A DNA stretch of 64,000 bases from Streptomyces sp. 1331.2 (lineage in GTDB: Bacteria; Actinomycetota; Actinomycetes; Streptomycetales; Streptomycetaceae). A program made the position numbers and the translations under genes. The notes under the pieces were generated by a model that did no database searches, had not been told where the DNA came from, and saw only the letters and a program-made list of their open reading frames with translations. Shown here one piece after another: positions 7,704 to 63,717 of this stretch. The stretch covers positions 1,054,001 through 1,118,000 of the forward strand of contig NZ_OBMJ01000001.1 of assembly GCF_900199205.1 (NCBI RefSeq). The letters are read 5' to 3'. The first letter of the stretch is position 1, and every line of letters begins with the position of its first letter.

Positions 7704-7719
7704 CGCGGTGTCTCCCATG

Positions 7720-7752
7720 GAGTGGGAAGTCGGCCCGGCCGACTTCCCACTC
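7720..7752. terminator. Bidirectional terminator
   Basis: A perfect 16-nt inverted repeat (GAGTGGGAAGTCGGCC and complement, separated by one base) forms a 13-14 bp stem with a minimal loop. It lies between the small membrane protein gene and the convergent 3' end of the hopanoid operon. Confidence 0.85.
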
Positions 7753-7766
7753 CCCGCGCCCGGTCG

Positions 7767-27558: not shown

Positions 27559-27643
27559 GTCCGGGTGGCGGAATGGCAGACGCGCTAGCTTGAGGTGCTA
27601 GTGCCCTTTATCGGGCGTGGGGGTTCAAGTCCCCCCTCGGACA
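27559..27643 (+). tRNA. tRNA-Leu (anticodon GAG)
   Basis: 85 nt folding as a class II tRNA. The acceptor stem GTCCGGG pairs with CTCGGAC (one G-U). The D arm contains TGGCGGAATGGCAGACGC. The anticodon stem CTAGC/GCTAG has loop TTGAGGT, giving anticodon GAG. A long variable arm (TGCCCTTTATCGGGCG) is followed by the T arm with GTTCAAG. Discriminator base is A. The 3' CCA is not encoded (ACA follows). It reads CUC/CUU leucine codons. Confidence 0.96.
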
Positions 27644-34783: not shown

Positions 34784-34807
34784 GGCGGTCTCCTGGTGGG
34801 GATGCGG

Positions 34808-34902
34808 GGGCCCAGGCGCTCGGCAACTGCACGTGAGGTTTCACGAGGCTGCTTCCCGATGGTTGATTCCATCCCTACGCGCCAGTCGCAGCCCGCCGGA
34901 AT
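34808..34902 (-). promoter_or_regulatory. ZTP (pfl) riboswitch upstream of glyA
   Basis: Read on the minus strand, the leader has the pfl consensus: stem GGCTGC...GCAGCC enclosing ACTGGCG, then GGAATCAACC and GGGAAGC, a variable linker, and the 3' conserved hairpin GCCGAGCGCCTGGGC. This RNA class senses ZTP/ZMP, signalling 10-formyl-THF shortage, and usually switches glyA or purine genes on. The aptamer's CCTGG (plus-strand 34812-34816) is complementary to the CCAGG that overlaps the glyA Shine-Dalgarno (34792-34796). This suggests translational control in which ligand binding frees the ribosome site. Confidence 0.9.
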
Positions 34903-43017: not shown

Positions 43018-43443
43018 GTGTCCGCACCCGAGGATGCCCTGCCGTTCTTCGTCTACGGCACCCTGCGCAGTGGCGGCCGCAACCACGCCGCCCACCTGGC
43101 CGGGCGCTGCGCCGACATCCGGCCTGCGGTGCTGGACGGCGCCGCACTGCACGCGGGGCCCGGCTTCCCGTACGCCGTGCCGGACGCGGCGCCCGGGCGC
43201 CGGATCGTGGGTGAGCTGATCACCGTCCGCCCGGGCGCGTACGCCGGAGCGCTGGAGGCCCTGGACGCGCTGGAGGAGTGCCGGGCGGACGGGACCGGGC
43301 TGTACGTGCGGCGCCGGATGTCGGTGCGGACGGCGGCGGGCGAGGCTCGGGACGCGTGGGTCTACCTCGCCGGGCCGGCCGCCGCGGCCCGGTTGCGCGA
43401 GCGGCCGGCGCTGATCGAGTCGGGGGACTGGGCGGAGCGGTGA
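43018..43443 (+). CDS. Gamma-glutamylcyclotransferase-like (GGCT/AIG2) protein
   Basis: 141 residues from the GTG at 43018; GAGGAGGT 7 nt upstream makes this the clear start rather than 42946. GGCT-fold motif FVYGTLRSGGRN at the N-terminus and GELITVRPGAYAGALEALDALE, whose central glutamate region is the usual catalytic site. The family covers gamma-glutamylcyclotransferases and many proteins of unknown substrate. Small and cytoplasmic, probably monocistronic. It is followed directly by a large nested hairpin repeat. Confidence 0.85.
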   Translation: MSAPEDALPFFVYGTLRSGGRNHAAHLAGRCADIRPAVLDGAALHAGPGFPYAVPDAAPGRRIVGELITVRPGAYAGALEALDALEECRADGTGLYVRRRMSVRTAAGEARDAWVYLAGPAAAARLRERPALIESGDWAER

Positions 43444-43573
43444 CGGCGTTCGGAGTTCAGCGGACAACTTTGAGCGGACAACTTTCAGCCGACGACTTTC
43501 AGACGACAGATTTCAGATGACAGCCTTCAGATGACAACTTTCAAAATCTGAAATCTGTCAGCTGAACGCCGTC
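43442..43573. repeat. Nested inverted repeat, GACAGAT-word family, copy 1
   Basis: The outer arms GACGGCGTTC (43442-43451) and GAACGCCGTC (43564-43573) are perfect complements. Inside, GACAGATTTCAGAT (43505-43518) pairs perfectly with 43546-43559. The 5' side also has ACAACTTT-x-AGC-type direct repeats every 16-20 bp. It starts at the stop codon of the cyclotransferase gene. It may terminate that transcript, but it is larger and more AT-rich than other terminators here. Related elements lie at 51461-51551 and 62741-62832. Confidence 0.8.
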
Positions 43574-49682: not shown

Positions 49683-51431
49683 GTGGCAGGGATGAGTCGG
49701 CGCACGTTCCTCACGGGTACGTCGGTGGCCGCCGCATGGTCGGCCTTGTCGCTGGGCGGCGCGTCGTTCGCCTCGGCCGCGACGCGTGACCAGGCGCTGG
49801 CGGCCACGGCCGCGCGGGCCGTCACGGTCGCCGGCACCACGCTGGAGCAGGTGGCCACGCCGGTCGGCGCCGGCACCTACAAGCGGCTGACCGCCGGCCC
49901 GGGCTGGCCGCTGGTGGTGCGCGGCGACCTGGCCGCGCCGGGCACCGGCAGAGACGACCGCCGCACCGGGCTGGCCAGCTTCGTCCAGTTCAGCGACCTG
50001 CACCTGGTGGACACCGAGTCCCCGGTGCGCTTCGAGTACCTGGCCCGGTTCAACGGCAGCGCCTACCGGCCGCAGGAGTCCCTGAACGCCCGCGGTGTGT
50101 CGGCGCTCGTCGAGCGGGTCAACTCGCTCGCCGGCGGCCCCTACACCGGAATGCCGTTCAGCATGGTGATGGCCACCGGTGACAACACCGACAACCACGA
50201 GCTCGCCGAACTCGACTGGTACCTCAAGGTCATGGGCGGTGGCCGGCTCGCCCAGAACACCGGCGACCCGAACCGCTACGAAGGTGTGCAGAACTCCGGC
50301 AACTCGGCCTACTGGAACCCCGAGCTCGCCTACGGCGACGGCTACAAGACCAAGGGATTCCCGCAGATATCCGGCTTCCTGTCCGCCTCGGGCCGCCCCT
50401 TCGACGCGCCGGGCCTGCGCACGCCGTGGTACACGACGGTCGGCAACCACGACGACAGCATCGAGGGCTCGCTGCCCGACCTCGGACTGCTCAACGACCT
50501 CTACACCGGCCAGTACAAGCTGGAGGGCTGCGACGACGCCACGGCCGCCCAGCTGATGGACTCGCTGCGCCGCGACCCGGCGGGCGCCGTGCTGCTGCTC
50601 GCGAAGCTGCTCGCCGACGGCGAGGCGGTGCGCCGGATCACCCCGGACGAGCGCCGCAAGCCGTTCACGCTCAAGGAGTTCGCCAAGGCCCACCTGGACC
50701 CGGCGGTCACCGGCGCGGGCCCGTACGGGCACGGCTTCACCTCGGACATGGCGAGCAGCGGCAAGCTCTACTACACCTTCCGCATCTCGGAGAAGGTGGT
50801 CGGCATCAGCCTGGACACCACCAACCAGGCCGGGTTCGCGGACGGTTCGCTGGGCACCGCCCAACTGCGCTGGCTGGAGAAGCAGTTGCAGGCGCACAGC
50901 GGCCACTGGTACGACGCCGACGGGCGCAAGGTCACGGGCGGGAGCACGGACGACGTGATCCTGCTCTTCAGCCACCACACCAGCAGCTCCATGGGCAACC
51001 TGCTGCCGGACCCGCGCAACATCTTCGAGCGGCGGCACGACGGCAACGAGCTGGTGGCGCTGCTGCAGCGCTACCCGAACGTGGTCGCCTGGGTGAACGG
51101 GCACACCCACATGAACAAGATCACGCCGCACGGCCACGCGGTGCCGGAGCGGGCGTTCTGGGAGATCAACACCGCCTCGCACATCGACTACCCGCAGCAC
51201 GGCCGGATCATCGAGGTCGTGGACAACGGGGACGGCACGCTCTCGCTGTTCACCACGCTGATCGAGTCCTCCGCGCCGTACGAGACGGACTTCGGCGGCA
51301 CCTCGGACGCCAACCTCGCGGCGCTCTACCGCGAGCTGTCGTACAACGACCCGAACGGGCGGGTCACGGCGCTGCTCGGCGCGGGCGAGGACCACAACAC
51401 GGAGCTGGTCATCGCCAAGCCGACCCGGTGA
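49683..51431 (+). CDS. Tat-exported metallophosphoesterase (TIGR03767-like)
   Basis: 582 residues from the GTG at 49683 (GGGGG about 6 nt upstream); the ATG at 49692 is an alternative. The twin-arginine signal SRRTFLTGTSVAAAWSALSLGGASFA gives export across the membrane. The calcineurin-like phosphoesterase core has all metal motifs: FSDLHLVD, MATGDNTDNHE, VGNHDDSIEG, LFSHHTSS and VNGHTHMNK. The long insertions between them match the TIGR03767 group. It probably hydrolyses a phosphomonoester or diester outside the cell, perhaps under phosphate limitation, but no clear PHO box was found in the 280 bp upstream. It interrupts the cobalamin genes and is not part of that pathway. Confidence 0.88.
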   Translation: MAGMSRRTFLTGTSVAAAWSALSLGGASFASAATRDQALAATAARAVTVAGTTLEQVATPVGAGTYKRLTAGPGWPLVVRGDLAAPGTGRDDRRTGLASFVQFSDLHLVDTESPVRFEYLARFNGSAYRPQESLNARGVSALVERVNSLAGGPYTGMPFSMVMATGDNTDNHELAELDWYLKVMGGGRLAQNTGDPNRYEGVQNSGNSAYWNPELAYGDGYKTKGFPQISGFLSASGRPFDAPGLRTPWYTTVGNHDDSIEGSLPDLGLLNDLYTGQYKLEGCDDATAAQLMDSLRRDPAGAVLLLAKLLADGEAVRRITPDERRKPFTLKEFAKAHLDPAVTGAGPYGHGFTSDMASSGKLYYTFRISEKVVGISLDTTNQAGFADGSLGTAQLRWLEKQLQAHSGHWYDADGRKVTGGSTDDVILLFSHHTSSSMGNLLPDPRNIFERRHDGNELVALLQRYPNVVAWVNGHTHMNKITPHGHAVPERAFWEINTASHIDYPQHGRIIEVVDNGDGTLSLFTTLIESSAPYETDFGGTSDANLAALYRELSYNDPNGRVTALLGAGEDHNTELVIAKPTR

Positions 51432-51460: not shown

Positions 51461-51551
51461 GGCTGACGGCGAACAGATGACAAAAGACAGATGACAGCTG
51501 ACAGATTTCGTTATCTGTCAGCTGTCATCTGTCATCCGTCCGACGTCAGCC
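51461..51551. repeat. Nested inverted repeat, GACAGAT-word family, copy 2
   Basis: A perfect 21-bp stem (51486-51506 with 51513-51533; arm begins GACAGATGACAGCTGACAG) has a TTCGTT loop. It is enclosed by outer arms GGCTGACG (51461-51468) and CGTCAGCC (51544-51551). It lies between the convergent phosphoesterase and cobIJ genes, where it can act as a bidirectional terminator. It is the cleanest member of the family. Confidence 0.9.
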
Positions 51552-51559
51552 GTCCGCCG

Positions 51560-53092
51560 TCACGCCTCCGGGTACCGCCGGGGCGTCCAGACGACCTCCA
51601 CGCCGCCGCCCCGCTCGACCGCCTGGGTCTGCGAGGAGCCGATCAGCAGGATCGTCCGCATGTCGACCAGCGCCGGGTCCAGTTCGCCGAGCCTGACGAT
51701 CCGGATCCGCTCGGTCGGCCCGCCGACGTCCCGCGCCATCACCACCGGGGTCTCCGGCGCCCGGTACTCCAGCAGCAGGTCCCGGGCGAGGCCGACCTGG
51801 GTGGTCCGGGACTGTGAGCCCGGGTTGTACAGCGCGAGCACCAGGTCCGCCTCGGCGGCGGCGCGCAGCCTCTTGGCCACCACGTCCCAGGGCTTGAGCC
51901 GGTCGGAAAGCGACACCGTCGCATAGTCGTGCCCGAGCGGGGCGCCGGCCCGGGAGGCAGCCGCGTGGGCGGCGGTCATCCCCGGGAGGATCCGCACCGG
52001 GACGTCCCGGTAGGCCTCCTCGCAGGCGACCTCCAGCACGGCGGTGGCCATCGCGAAGACGCCCGGGTCGCCGGAGGAGACCACCGCGACCCGGTGCCCG
52101 CGCCGCGCGAGGTCCAGCGCGTACTCGGCGCGCTCCGACTCCACCTTGTTGTCCGAGCCGTGCCGCTGCTGCCCCGGGCGCTCGGGCACCCGGGCCAGGT
52201 AGGTGGTGTAGCCGACCAGGTCGGTGGCCTCGGCCAGCGCGCCGCGCGCCTCGGGGGTGAGCCAGAGCGGCCCGGCCGGCCCGGTGCCGACCACGGTCAC
52301 GCTGCCGGTGCCCTCCGACAGCCGGACCTCGGGCTCCAGCGGCGCGACCTTGCTCGGCAGCACCGCGACCGAGAAGTACGGCACCGTCTCGCCGTCGACC
52401 TCCGCGAGTGGCGCGATGCGCTCGCCCGCCATGAAGGCCCGCTCCACGTACTGGGCGTCGTCCAGCCGCCCGGCCCGCTCCAGGGCCCGGCGGACGACCG
52501 GGAAGGTGCGCCCGAGCTTCATGATCACCGCGGAGTCGGCGGCCGCGATCCGCGCCGTCAGCTCCTCCTCGGGCAGGGTGCCCGGGATGACGGTGAGCGT
52601 CTCCTCCGCCTCGGTCAGCGGCTGTCCGAGGCGGGCCGCCGCCGCGCTGACCGAGGTCACGCCGGGCACCACCTCGGTCGGGTAGCGGTGCGCGAGCCGC
52701 TTGTGCATGTGCTGGTACGAGCCGTAGAAGAGCGGGTCCCCCTCGGCGAGGACCACGACGTCGCGGCCGGCGTCCAGGTGGGCGGCCAGCCGGGCGGCGG
52801 CCTCCTCGTAGAACTCGTCCAACGCGCCCCGGTACCCGCCCGGGTGGTCGGTGGTCTCGACGGTGAGCGGGTAGACCAGCTTCTCCTCGATCTGACCACC
52901 CGTCAGGTACCGCTCGGCGATCGAGCGTGCGATGGACCGGCCGTGCCGAGCGCTGTGGTACGCCACCACGTCGGCCTTGCCGATGAGTTCGGCGGCGCGG
53001 ACGGTCACCAGCGACGGGTCCCCCGGGCCGAGCCCGACGCCGTACAGCCGTCCGGTCGAGGTCGAGGTCGAGGGGCTCTGACGTTCCGTCAC
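51560..53092 (-). CDS. cobIJ: Precorrin-2 C20- and precorrin-3B C17-methyltransferase fusion (CobI-CobJ)
   Basis: 510 residues. The CobI domain (about 12-245) begins [32 protein letters not shown] and carries [21 protein letters not shown] and [18 protein letters not shown]. The CobJ domain (about 265-505) has [81 protein letters not shown] and [10 protein letters not shown]. The fusion methylates C20 and later C17 with ring contraction, using SAM. The GTG at 53092 overlaps the cobH stop by 4 nt; the order cobG-cobH-cobIJ forms one operon on the minus strand. Confidence 0.95.
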
Positions 53093-55264: not shown

Positions 55265-55370
55265 GACGGCGCAGGGGAGGAAACCGGTGCAAGCCCGGTG
55301 CGGTCCCGCCACTGTGACCGCGGTTCACCGGGAAGCCGGTCGGCCGCGGGAGCCAGGAACTCCTGCCGTC
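55265..55370 (+). promoter_or_regulatory. Cobalamin (adenosylcobalamin) riboswitch
   Basis: The conserved core reads GAAACCGGTGCAAGCC, followed by GGTCCCGCCACTGTGACC (the B12 box region) and GAAGCCGG, then GAGCCAGGAACTC near the 3' end. The closing stem GACGGCGCAGG/CCTGCCGTC (55265/55370) defines the aptamer. A GGGCGGTCCGCGGACCGCCC palindrome just 5' (55234-55253) may be a separate hairpin. It should repress the cobN transcript or its translation when adenosylcobalamin is abundant. Confidence 0.94.
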
Positions 55371-62620: not shown

Positions 62621-62740
62621 CGGTGATCCCACTCCTCGGGTAGCGGTCTGCGGCCCCCGCCCACTCCCCCGCCCCAGCATGCGGGGCGAAGCGGCGAGGG
62701 GGCGGGCGCTGGTGGGCCGAACGGGCGGGAACGTGAGGGA

Positions 62741-62832
62741 ACGAACGACGGCAGACAGATGACAGCCGACAGATGACAGATGTTGAAATCTGTTATCTGT
62801 CGGCTGAAATCTGTCGGCCGTCAGTTGTTCGT
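62741..62832. repeat. Nested inverted repeat, GACAGAT-word family, copy 3
   Basis: Layers from outside in: ACGAAC (62741-62746) with GTTCGT (62827-62832), GACGGC (62747-62752) with GCCGTC (62817-62822), ACAGAT (62755-62760) with ATCTGT (62809-62814), and CAGCCGACAGAT (62763-62774) with its complement (62795-62806). The centre also has GACAGAT and AAATCTGTT. It lies after the AraC gene stop and before the oxidoreductase operon. Confidence 0.85.
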
Positions 62833-62841
62833 CGCCACGCG

Positions 62842-63717
62842 TTAGCTCCGCAGAGCCCGGGCCACCGGGATCCAGAGTTCCGCCTCGGCGTCGGCCGCCC
62901 CCGGGACGAAGCGGGTCTTCAGGATCTCCGGGCCCGGCCGGGCCTCGTACGGGTTGGACGGGAACCACTGCGCGGCCACGTCCCCCCACATCTCCTGCAG
63001 CGCCTGCGGGAACGGTCCGGTGTTGGTGAACACCGCCCAGGTGCCGGCCGGGACGTCGAGGACATCCAGGTCATCCGGGACGACGGCGTCCGCGCGCGCC
63101 ACCACCGCGTGCCAGTAGTCGAGTTCGGACCCCTCCTCCCGGTTGGGCGAGAAGTCGTCGGTCACCGACACGATGCCGACCGGGTCCGGTCCGGTGAGGG
63201 CCGTGATCCGCTCGACGGTGTCCTTGCCGAGCCCCCTGATGAACTCGGCGATGTGCGGGTTGATCCCCAGGTAGACCAGCGGCACCCGGGCCTTCCTGCC
63301 GACGATCCGGAACTCCGGCTTCTCGATGATTCGGTATTCCATGCTGCTGCTTCCTTCCACGACGAGTCGGAAGGACATCCGGGGCTGGGAGGTGAGCACC
63401 GCACCGTCACGCCGGGCCTCTCCCGGCCCGACCCCGTGCATCGCCCGGAACGCCCGGGCGAACGCCTCCCCCGACGTGTACCCGTACCGGACCGCGATGT
63501 CGAGCAACGTCCGCTCGCCGTCCAGGACTTCGGCCCCGGCGACGGTCAGTCGCCGGCGCCGGACGTACTCCGAGAACGGCATCCCGGCGAGCAGCGAGAA
63601 CAACCGCCGGAAGTGGTACTCGGACGTCATCGCTATCCGCGCCAGCTCGCTCACGTCGACCTCGCCGTCCAGGTCCCGTTCGATGCGCTCCATCGCCCGG
63701 TTCAGGTGCTCCAGCAC
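62842..63717 (-). CDS. AraC-family regulator with GyrI-like effector-binding domain
   Basis: 291 residues from the GTG at 63717 (AAGGATGGGGG upstream); the frame to 63822 crosses a terminator hairpin. N-terminal AraC HTH (about 1-105): LNRAMERIERDLDGEVDVSELARIAMTSEYHFRRLFS, RRLTVAGAEVL and IAVRYGYTSGEAFARAFRAMHGVGPGEARR. The C-terminal GyrI/BacEB effector domain (about 125-290) has VRIIEKPEFRIVGRKARV-like sequence, then LDVLDVPAGTWAVFTNTGPFPQALQEMWG. Regulators of this Rob/SoxS-like two-domain type respond to hydrophobic drugs. The neighbouring oxidoreductase/VOC operon is a plausible target. Confidence 0.92.
   Translation of the reverse strand: MLEHLNRAMERIERDLDGEVDVSELARIAMTSEYHFRRLFSLLAGMPFSEYVRRRRLTVAGAEVLDGERTLLDIAVRYGYTSGEAFARAFRAMHGVGPGEARRDGAVLTSQPRMSFRLVVEGSSSMEYRIIEKPEFRIVGRKARVPLVYLGINPHIAEFIRGLGKDTVERITALTGPDPVGIVSVTDDFSPNREEGSELDYWHAVVARADAVVPDDLDVLDVPAGTWAVFTNTGPFPQALQEMWGDVAAQWFPSNPYEARPGPEILKTRFVPGAADAEAELWIPVARALRS

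Follow-up and report, generated by a model that had tools for sequence, protein, structure and literature searches.

What makes a run of repeated 7-bp words (heptads) fold into a near-perfect palindrome between two convergent genes, and what holds such palindromes to one part of a chromosome? Both questions are raised by a nested hairpin in the genome of Streptomyces sp. 1331.2. Bacterial repeat families are commonly attributed to transposases or to selection acting on individual copies. In this case, the palindromes have filled many gene ends of one core region, and the other 95% of the chromosome is almost untouched. Either palindromes can spread and be repaired locally, or the chromosome domain has a sequence label of its own. 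The DNA analysed, termed the window throughout, is a stretch of 64,000 nucleotides (C1:1054001-1118000) of the 8.43-Mb genome G000; other genomes compared are given as G004, G011, and so on. The preferred reading, proposed tentatively and with somewhat less than even confidence, is that these are clade-specific REP-like palindromes of 7-bp words, positioned behind genes in a core stretch of about 410 kb, that originated by slippage and template switching.

The three hairpins and the words that build them

The window hairpin has a perfect 21-bp stem (51486-51506 and 51513-51533 in window coordinates) closed by a TTCGTT loop, and weaker complementarity extends it to 46-nt arms (78%). The perfect stem, the loop, the further arms, and the convergent neighbors described in a first-pass annotation are all seen at this site. 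The two other hairpins of the same words that it described also exist, but both lie in tandem gaps (Table 1). The gene to the right, which is called CobJ below, is presumably CobI-CobJ. When folded as RNA, the three hairpins gave z-scores on the plus and minus strands of -7.1/-9.2 (51461), -5.9/-4.8 (43442), and -13.0/-10.7 (62739), and 0 of 200 shuffles folded as well for each hairpin on both strands. The three hairpins are genuine and well outside what chance would give. None of them matches an Rfam 15 model at the gathering threshold; other positions in the window carry Rfam riboswitches and a tRNA.

Table 1. Features of the window (window coordinates)
Feature	Position	Strand	Setting or remark
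Heptad hairpin element studied	51461..51558	no strand	perfect 21-bp stem and outer imperfect heptad arms
Heptad hairpin element, TTCAGAT-rich	43442..43573		tandem gap, directly after stop of 43018-43443 (+)
Heptad hairpin element, 43-nt arms, 84% complementary	62739..62830		tandem gap, about 12 nt from stop of 62842-63717 (-)
Metallophosphoesterase gene (PF00149)	49725..51431	+	left of the window hairpin
Tetrapyrrole methylase gene, two PF00590 stretches (CobJ)	51560..53092	-	right of the window hairpin; cross-species anchor
Cobalamin riboswitch	55277..55362	+	Rfam
ZMP/ZTP riboswitch	34803..34899	-	Rfam
tRNA	27559..27643	+	Rfam
Hairpin of a second, dispersed family	7719..7753

The family is neither limited to three copies nor strewn at random through genes. 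The word CAGATGACAG occurs 47 times in G000 (25 forward, 22 reverse) versus 0 times for the reversed control word, and 0 of the 31 strict elements in the family's stretch of the G000 chromosome (the domain, delimited below) lie inside called genes. Strict elements number 31 in the G000 domain, 31 in G004, and 33 in G016; a strict G000 count of 32 includes a false one at 818558, outside the domain. Looser detectors place 2 of 35 and, where two heptad pairs are sufficient, 9 of 49 elements within called genes, as counted from hits not checked individually and from the gene positions of a home-made caller. The 35-element G000 set includes three false GC-rich hits (1080833, 1356504, and 1431842), which were dropped from the orthology and grammar analyses.

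The elements are 49-67% AT in a region that is 73% GC. Length, word order, and loop vary among them, and there is no fixed motif. In G000 and G004 elements, the spacing from CAG to CAG is 7 nt 383 times, 14 nt 78 times, and 17 nt 34 times, and the four variable bases after CAG are most often ATGA (123), ATTT (102), CTGA (81), CGAA (50), CTGT (43), ATAA (39), and CCGA (29). A frequent apex is the perfect palindrome ACAGATTTCGAAATCTGT. Many heptad words contain TGA or TAA; the 7-nt period shifts the frame by one each time, and three words could therefore close all three frames.

Over the inner 24 pairs, the match of an arm to its own partner is 0.83, versus 0.32 to a partner taken from another element in register (73 of 93 hairpins; the 20 with arms shorter than 24 were dropped). 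Swapped arms nevertheless reach 0.69 in the best of 8 registers, where own arms reach 0.84 (G000), and part of the pairing is therefore shared vocabulary, which tells against the preferred reading. The claim that the family is repeated, intergenic, and distinct from the GC-rich hairpins elsewhere is borne out, with arms that change together. The further claim that structure is kept while sequence drifts holds for the structure, but the CAG-every-7 word grammar is kept as well.

Species range and confinement along the chromosome

The exact core was found in 16 of 394 genomes of the taxonomic family: all 16 are in the window's genus (70 genomes), and none of the 324 others has it. A named scan of one genome per species (84,980 species) gave 92 stretches; among the matches listed, 75 of 80 come from strains that carry the name Kitasatospora (among them K. 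aureofaciens and K. xanthocidica) or are filed under Streptomyces, and the remaining 5 are isolated matches in unrelated bacteria. Two more genomes of the genus (G001 and G020) are without the exact core but have heptads after CobJ, bringing the total to 18 of 70. A looser heptad pattern has 88-176 matches in these 18 genomes (14-49 for its reversed control) and 1-29 in 50 of the 52 other genomes of the genus, with 63 in G228 and 45 in G003. CobJ of the other 17 family-bearers is 92-98% identical to that of G000; the family-negative G028 and G006 are at 93%, and CobJ alone therefore separates the clade uncleanly.

In G003, a more distant species of the genus, CAGAT-type matches are scattered over the genome, and three of four inspected sites (loci L256, L258, and L262) are heptad inverted repeats, one with a hairpin score of 14. 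Heptad hairpins as such are therefore not tied to one region. A relative with such genome-wide hairpins could in principle have donated the block of about 410 kb by large-scale transfer, and G003 does carry related heptad repeats throughout its genome, but this origin is most improbable: for CobJ in the block, the nearest family-negative species are G028 and G006 (93%), with G003 at 84%, and G000-G004 protein identity runs at 92.0-89.6% through the block and at 89.2% for the 11 genes just beyond.

Within G000, 43 of the 47 CAGATGACAG words fall in 969,929-1,381,025 (411 kb, or 4.9% of the genome). Scanning C1:800,001-1,600,000 for hairpins gave 68 strong ones; the ones that contain family words are at 1,028,329-1,381,006, more degraded copies occur from 0.97 Mb, and ordinary GC-rich hairpins occur throughout the scanned stretch. 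Strict heptad triplets number 131 in G000 800-1600 kb, all within 0.96-1.40 Mb, and 0 in four 100-kb control blocks at 0.3, 2.2, 4.8, and 6.2 Mb. Confinement to one block is found in each of the five family-bearing genomes with a full word listing: besides G000, 46 of 48 words are in 1.682-2.065 Mb of G004, 61 of 61 in 5.001-5.525 Mb of G011, 28 of 30 in a 353-kb part of a single G018 contig, and 72 of 79 (another, looser word) in 5.863-6.407 Mb of G017. The clade-specific, region-bound family of heptad palindromes is real.

Confinement to one region is the unexplained and novel point of this family; no regionally confined heptad hairpin family in Kitasatospora was found in the open-licence literature, by title or abstract opening. 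Regional dialects elsewhere in G000 were considered and rejected, as four 100-kb blocks and flanks of about 360 kb gave GC-rich hairpins and a second, dispersed family; the rest of G000 was seen through word searches only. The second hairpin family, with the core (G)GAAGTCGG / CCGACTTC(C), lies along the chromosome unconfined, with copies at G000:C1 957391, 1468304, 1470874, 1507993, 4817071, 4822920, 6201279, and 6274552, in the window (Table 1), and in one G028 gap.

Reciprocal best hits show G000 982-1401 kb to be collinear with G004 1681-2080 kb (306 hits, median identity 90.4%) and G000 987-1323 kb to be collinear with G028 (248 hits, 87.3%). In G000 and G004, the domain is 2.3-2.8 Mb away from dnaA, and its last origin-side element is in the same gap in both (1,380,959 and 2,065,026, respectively). 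Near its terminal-side edge there is an rrn operon in G000, G004, and G017, with three G000 and two G004 elements beyond it. Known domain boundaries in Streptomyces are described to include rrn operons (PMC9723626), but the link is weak here: no rrn operon lies near that edge in G011 (rrn was located by an exact 19-nt word, with no match whatever in G016, G018, and G028), and therefore no common boundary mark was found. The domain-boundary genes, and the domain genes with a G004 orthologue but none in the G028 stretch, offered nothing compelling by eye.

Regional confinement is also a property of matS- and parS-type sites, which are present in many copies limited to one chromosome region. Heptad palindromes might be DNA sites that mark a chromosome domain in this manner, a predicted protein reading the CAG heptads and organizing the region of about 410 kb, although such a role is unlikely. 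Consistent with it are the one-block confinement in five genomes, the collinearity of G000 and G004 with elements retained at orthologous sites, the word grammar conserved beyond pairing, and the missing sense-strand polarity (see below). Word use also differs by species, with ATGA:ATAA at 83:12 in G004, 60:37 in G000, and 9:25 in MJM8645 (chi2 p 1.5e-8, 13 species; both arms are counted, making the true n about half, and SUK 42, the same genome as G016, and two few-unit rows were left out). A co-evolving reader would give such shifts. It is, in the same vein, improbable that the palindromes are address labels by which a clade-specific Kitasatospora protein, reading CAG every 7 bp, folds, segregates, or silences the region, with word use following the protein. 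The variable length, word order, and loop leave no fixed site to be read, no candidate protein was found, and the edges have no common mark.

Placement behind genes and strand polarity

The strict elements of the G000 domain, in gaps of at least 40 nt, occupy 15 of 52 convergent, 15 of 147 tandem, and 1 of 64 divergent gaps (divergent-gap avoidance p 0.0016). Of 48 tandem-gap elements in three genomes, 41 lie closer to the upstream stop, at a median of 16 nt. Such placement argues for a regional class of bidirectional U-poor intrinsic terminators that would have replaced GC-rich hairpins, with a vocabulary shared by descent, a plausible but less likely explanation; the nearness to upstream stops also counts against the preferred reading of REP-like palindromes. 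Highly structured transcript ends of the U-lack type are described in Streptomyces, accounting for 353 of 535 highly structured ends in S. clavuligerus (PMC8269248).

The gap behind CobJ gives a view of one such site across species. Heptads follow CobJ in 18 of 18 family-bearing species, and in 17 of 18 they form a good hairpin (scores 15-24) whose start is 8-80 nt from the stop. The 12 family-less CobJ loci lack heptad words up to 150 nt from the stop, and 11 of them have a GC-rich hairpin (score 11-17) at most 130 nt from it (starting 6-19 nt after it in 8 of them). These 11 include the closest family-negative species, G028, G006, and G021; G200 has no GC-rich hairpin within 130 nt of the CobJ stop. 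Whatever its sequence, a hairpin is retained after CobJ; this favors a terminator role and weighs against the preferred reading. Six G028 gaps are comparable to G000 elements, and four of these have a hairpin of score 9-15 (two have none), a further point for terminators.

Strand polarity bears on terminators from the other side. A hairpin kept for RNA should tolerate G-U on the sense strand, not A-C. Ordinary tandem-gap hairpins behave in this way (G-U 160 and A-C 98 in 164 hairpins of four genomes; 58 versus 26 in 62 hairpins of G000), whereas those of the family have G-U 77 versus A-C 107 (48 hairpins, three genomes) and 18 versus 46 (15 hairpins, G000). Mismatch counts differ between family and ordinary hairpins at Fisher p 3e-5 (multi-genome) and 1e-6 (G000). 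Counted per hairpin in G000 tandem gaps, G-U exceeds A-C in 32 and the reverse holds in 9 of 62 ordinary hairpins, versus 3 and 11 of 15 in the family (Fisher p 0.00027); over three genomes, the counts are 50 and 19 of 114 ordinary hairpins and 10 and 25 of 48 family hairpins (A-C excess p 0.017). Throughout this wobble comparison, the arms of family hairpins were delimited with a more lenient drop-off (4 versus 3) and a wider loop range than those of the controls, which also had a score floor of 11. The family's mismatches are mostly a left purine with a right pyrimidine, reflecting the make-up of the arms. The A-C excess, predicted neither by DNA symmetry nor by RNA selection, also counts against the preferred reading.

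The flanks agree with the stems. Ordinary hairpins have a T-tail of 2.14 on the sense versus 1.64 on the antisense side (n=108, p 0.019), whereas T in 10 nt for the family is 3.00 sense versus 3.55 antisense (p 0.13; the n=29 includes at least one hairpin that is not heptad-built). The short T run that follows the window hairpin on the CobJ side is an exception to this missing U-tract and favors terminators. In convergent gaps, ordinary hairpins are without polarity, and family hairpins lean slightly toward G-U (117 versus 92, strand arbitrary). On these counts, heptad hairpins lack the look of structures maintained base by base for their sense RNA, although they may still stop transcription; in the absence of a sense-RNA signature, a strand-symmetric DNA process or DNA recognition fits better. 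Terminators also need neither the CAG-every-7 grammar nor a regional limit. The first-pass proposal of a special terminator class thus keeps its support from placement and from the GC-rich hairpin at the CobJ site of family-less species, and it loses the sense G-U excess and T-tail polarity seen in ordinary hairpins of the same genomes.

Age, turnover, and origin

Adjacent orthologous neighbors in G004 are present for 19 of 32 G000 elements (the other 13 were left out of the gap test), and 17 of these 19 gaps also hold an element in G004. Since the proteins of the two species are about 90% identical there, the family is old. The remaining 2 of the 19 gaps have an element in G000 but none in G004. 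In the window, the orthologous G004 gap of element 62739-62830 also holds an element, and that of element 43442-43573 holds none. Orthologous elements have a similarity of 33.2 versus 26.5 for non-orthologous ones (sd 8.1; at least one of the 28 orthologous pairs, 969927, is wrongly mapped). These recognizable orthologous cores, with the CAG grammar in 18 species, represent a constraint beyond neutral palindrome upkeep and so count against the preferred reading. In the CobJ gap of the 18 species, pair 10 from the apex is G-C in 10, A-T in 7, and G-T in 1, and pair 11 is T-A in 12, G-C in 5, and C-A in 1. Pairs 10 and 11 switch together; most other pairs hardly vary.

Mobility, which the first-pass annotation also raised, is not supported at present. 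Miniature mobile elements of the REP or MITE kind, spread by a transposase, are a very unlikely account of sites that are old and common to species, and transposition is not expected to stay within 5% of a genome. A search for a REP-associated transposase, made with PF01797 (Y1, RAYT) only, found none in G000, G011, and G016 and positives in G004 (2), G008, and G018. The three positives among six family-bearing genomes tested would suit mobile elements, as would the REP-like placement (PMC3733652) and one element that lies inside an older hairpin (G000 1,028,314), but the GTAG or CGTC tag of REP elements is found in just 10 of 190 heptad-hairpin flanks of 14 nt (GTAG 4, CGTC 6). Transposase spread was rejected for the lack of PF01797 in G000.

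At G000 1,028,314, the heptad hairpin is flanked on both sides by the outer arms of a GC-rich hairpin, and G004 and G028 have this GC-rich hairpin without the heptad one. The G028 stretch has three GC-rich 7-bp tandems (C1 1725635, 1741074, and 1746571), one of which is at the end of the gene orthologous to that before G000 element 1128112; the other two match no G000 element. The filled and empty site, together with the G028 tandems, suggests that elements grew out of 7-bp tandems located within or close to hairpins already there.

The best reading is that these REP-like palindromes are kept perfect by a DNA-level process and perhaps double as U-poor terminators. The starting material would have been 7-bp tandem repeats, within GC-rich hairpins already present or next to them, that grew by slippage in the common ancestor of the 18 species. 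Template switching between arms during replication would then make and keep near-perfect palindromes, with a change in one arm copied to the other; template switching is described as both maker and keeper of perfect stems (PMC8794818). New palindromes would have settled where they are tolerated, behind stop codons, and may double as U-poor (I-shaped) terminators, replacing the older hairpin. Local copying within the chromosome domain would be the simplest guess for the limit to one region. Similarity within G000 is, however, independent of distance (rho 0.009, p 0.83, 496 pairs); local copying has therefore left no trace and was rejected on this ground, and the flat similarity is a further point against the preferred reading.

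Likenesses to known systems are partial. REP elements are described as short extragenic palindromes that follow genes, close to stops, in both convergent and tandem gaps (PMC3733652), and heptad elements are likewise many-copy short extragenic palindromes. Unlike REP elements, the heptad family is built of 7-bp words and is concentrated in one region instead of genome-wide; in the published account, most REP families spread throughout the genome, with the exception of T. roseum GTAG-23, which forms large blocks at few loci (PMC3733652). The TAACTGA heptamer repeats also have a 7-nt unit set head to tail, an intergenic position, and stop triplets in the unit, but they are direct repeats, mostly just upstream of starts in their main genome, whereas heptad elements are palindromes of variable words behind genes (PMC4679880). 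With matS- and parS-type sites the family has in common its regional confinement, here conserved between species, and it differs in having no fixed short motif and no known reader protein. U-lack (I-shaped) terminators of high-GC actinobacteria have a strong stem, no U-tract, and a place behind genes (PMC8269248). Heptad elements, which similarly form a stable hairpin shortly after the stop without a sense-side U-tract, are unlike these terminators in being AT-rich and regional, with a shared vocabulary and no sense G-U excess. The family thus fails defining REP tests and lacks the polarity of ordinary terminators, yet it sits where other species keep a GC-rich hairpin. It is nearest to REP elements in placement and nearest to U-poor terminators in anatomy.
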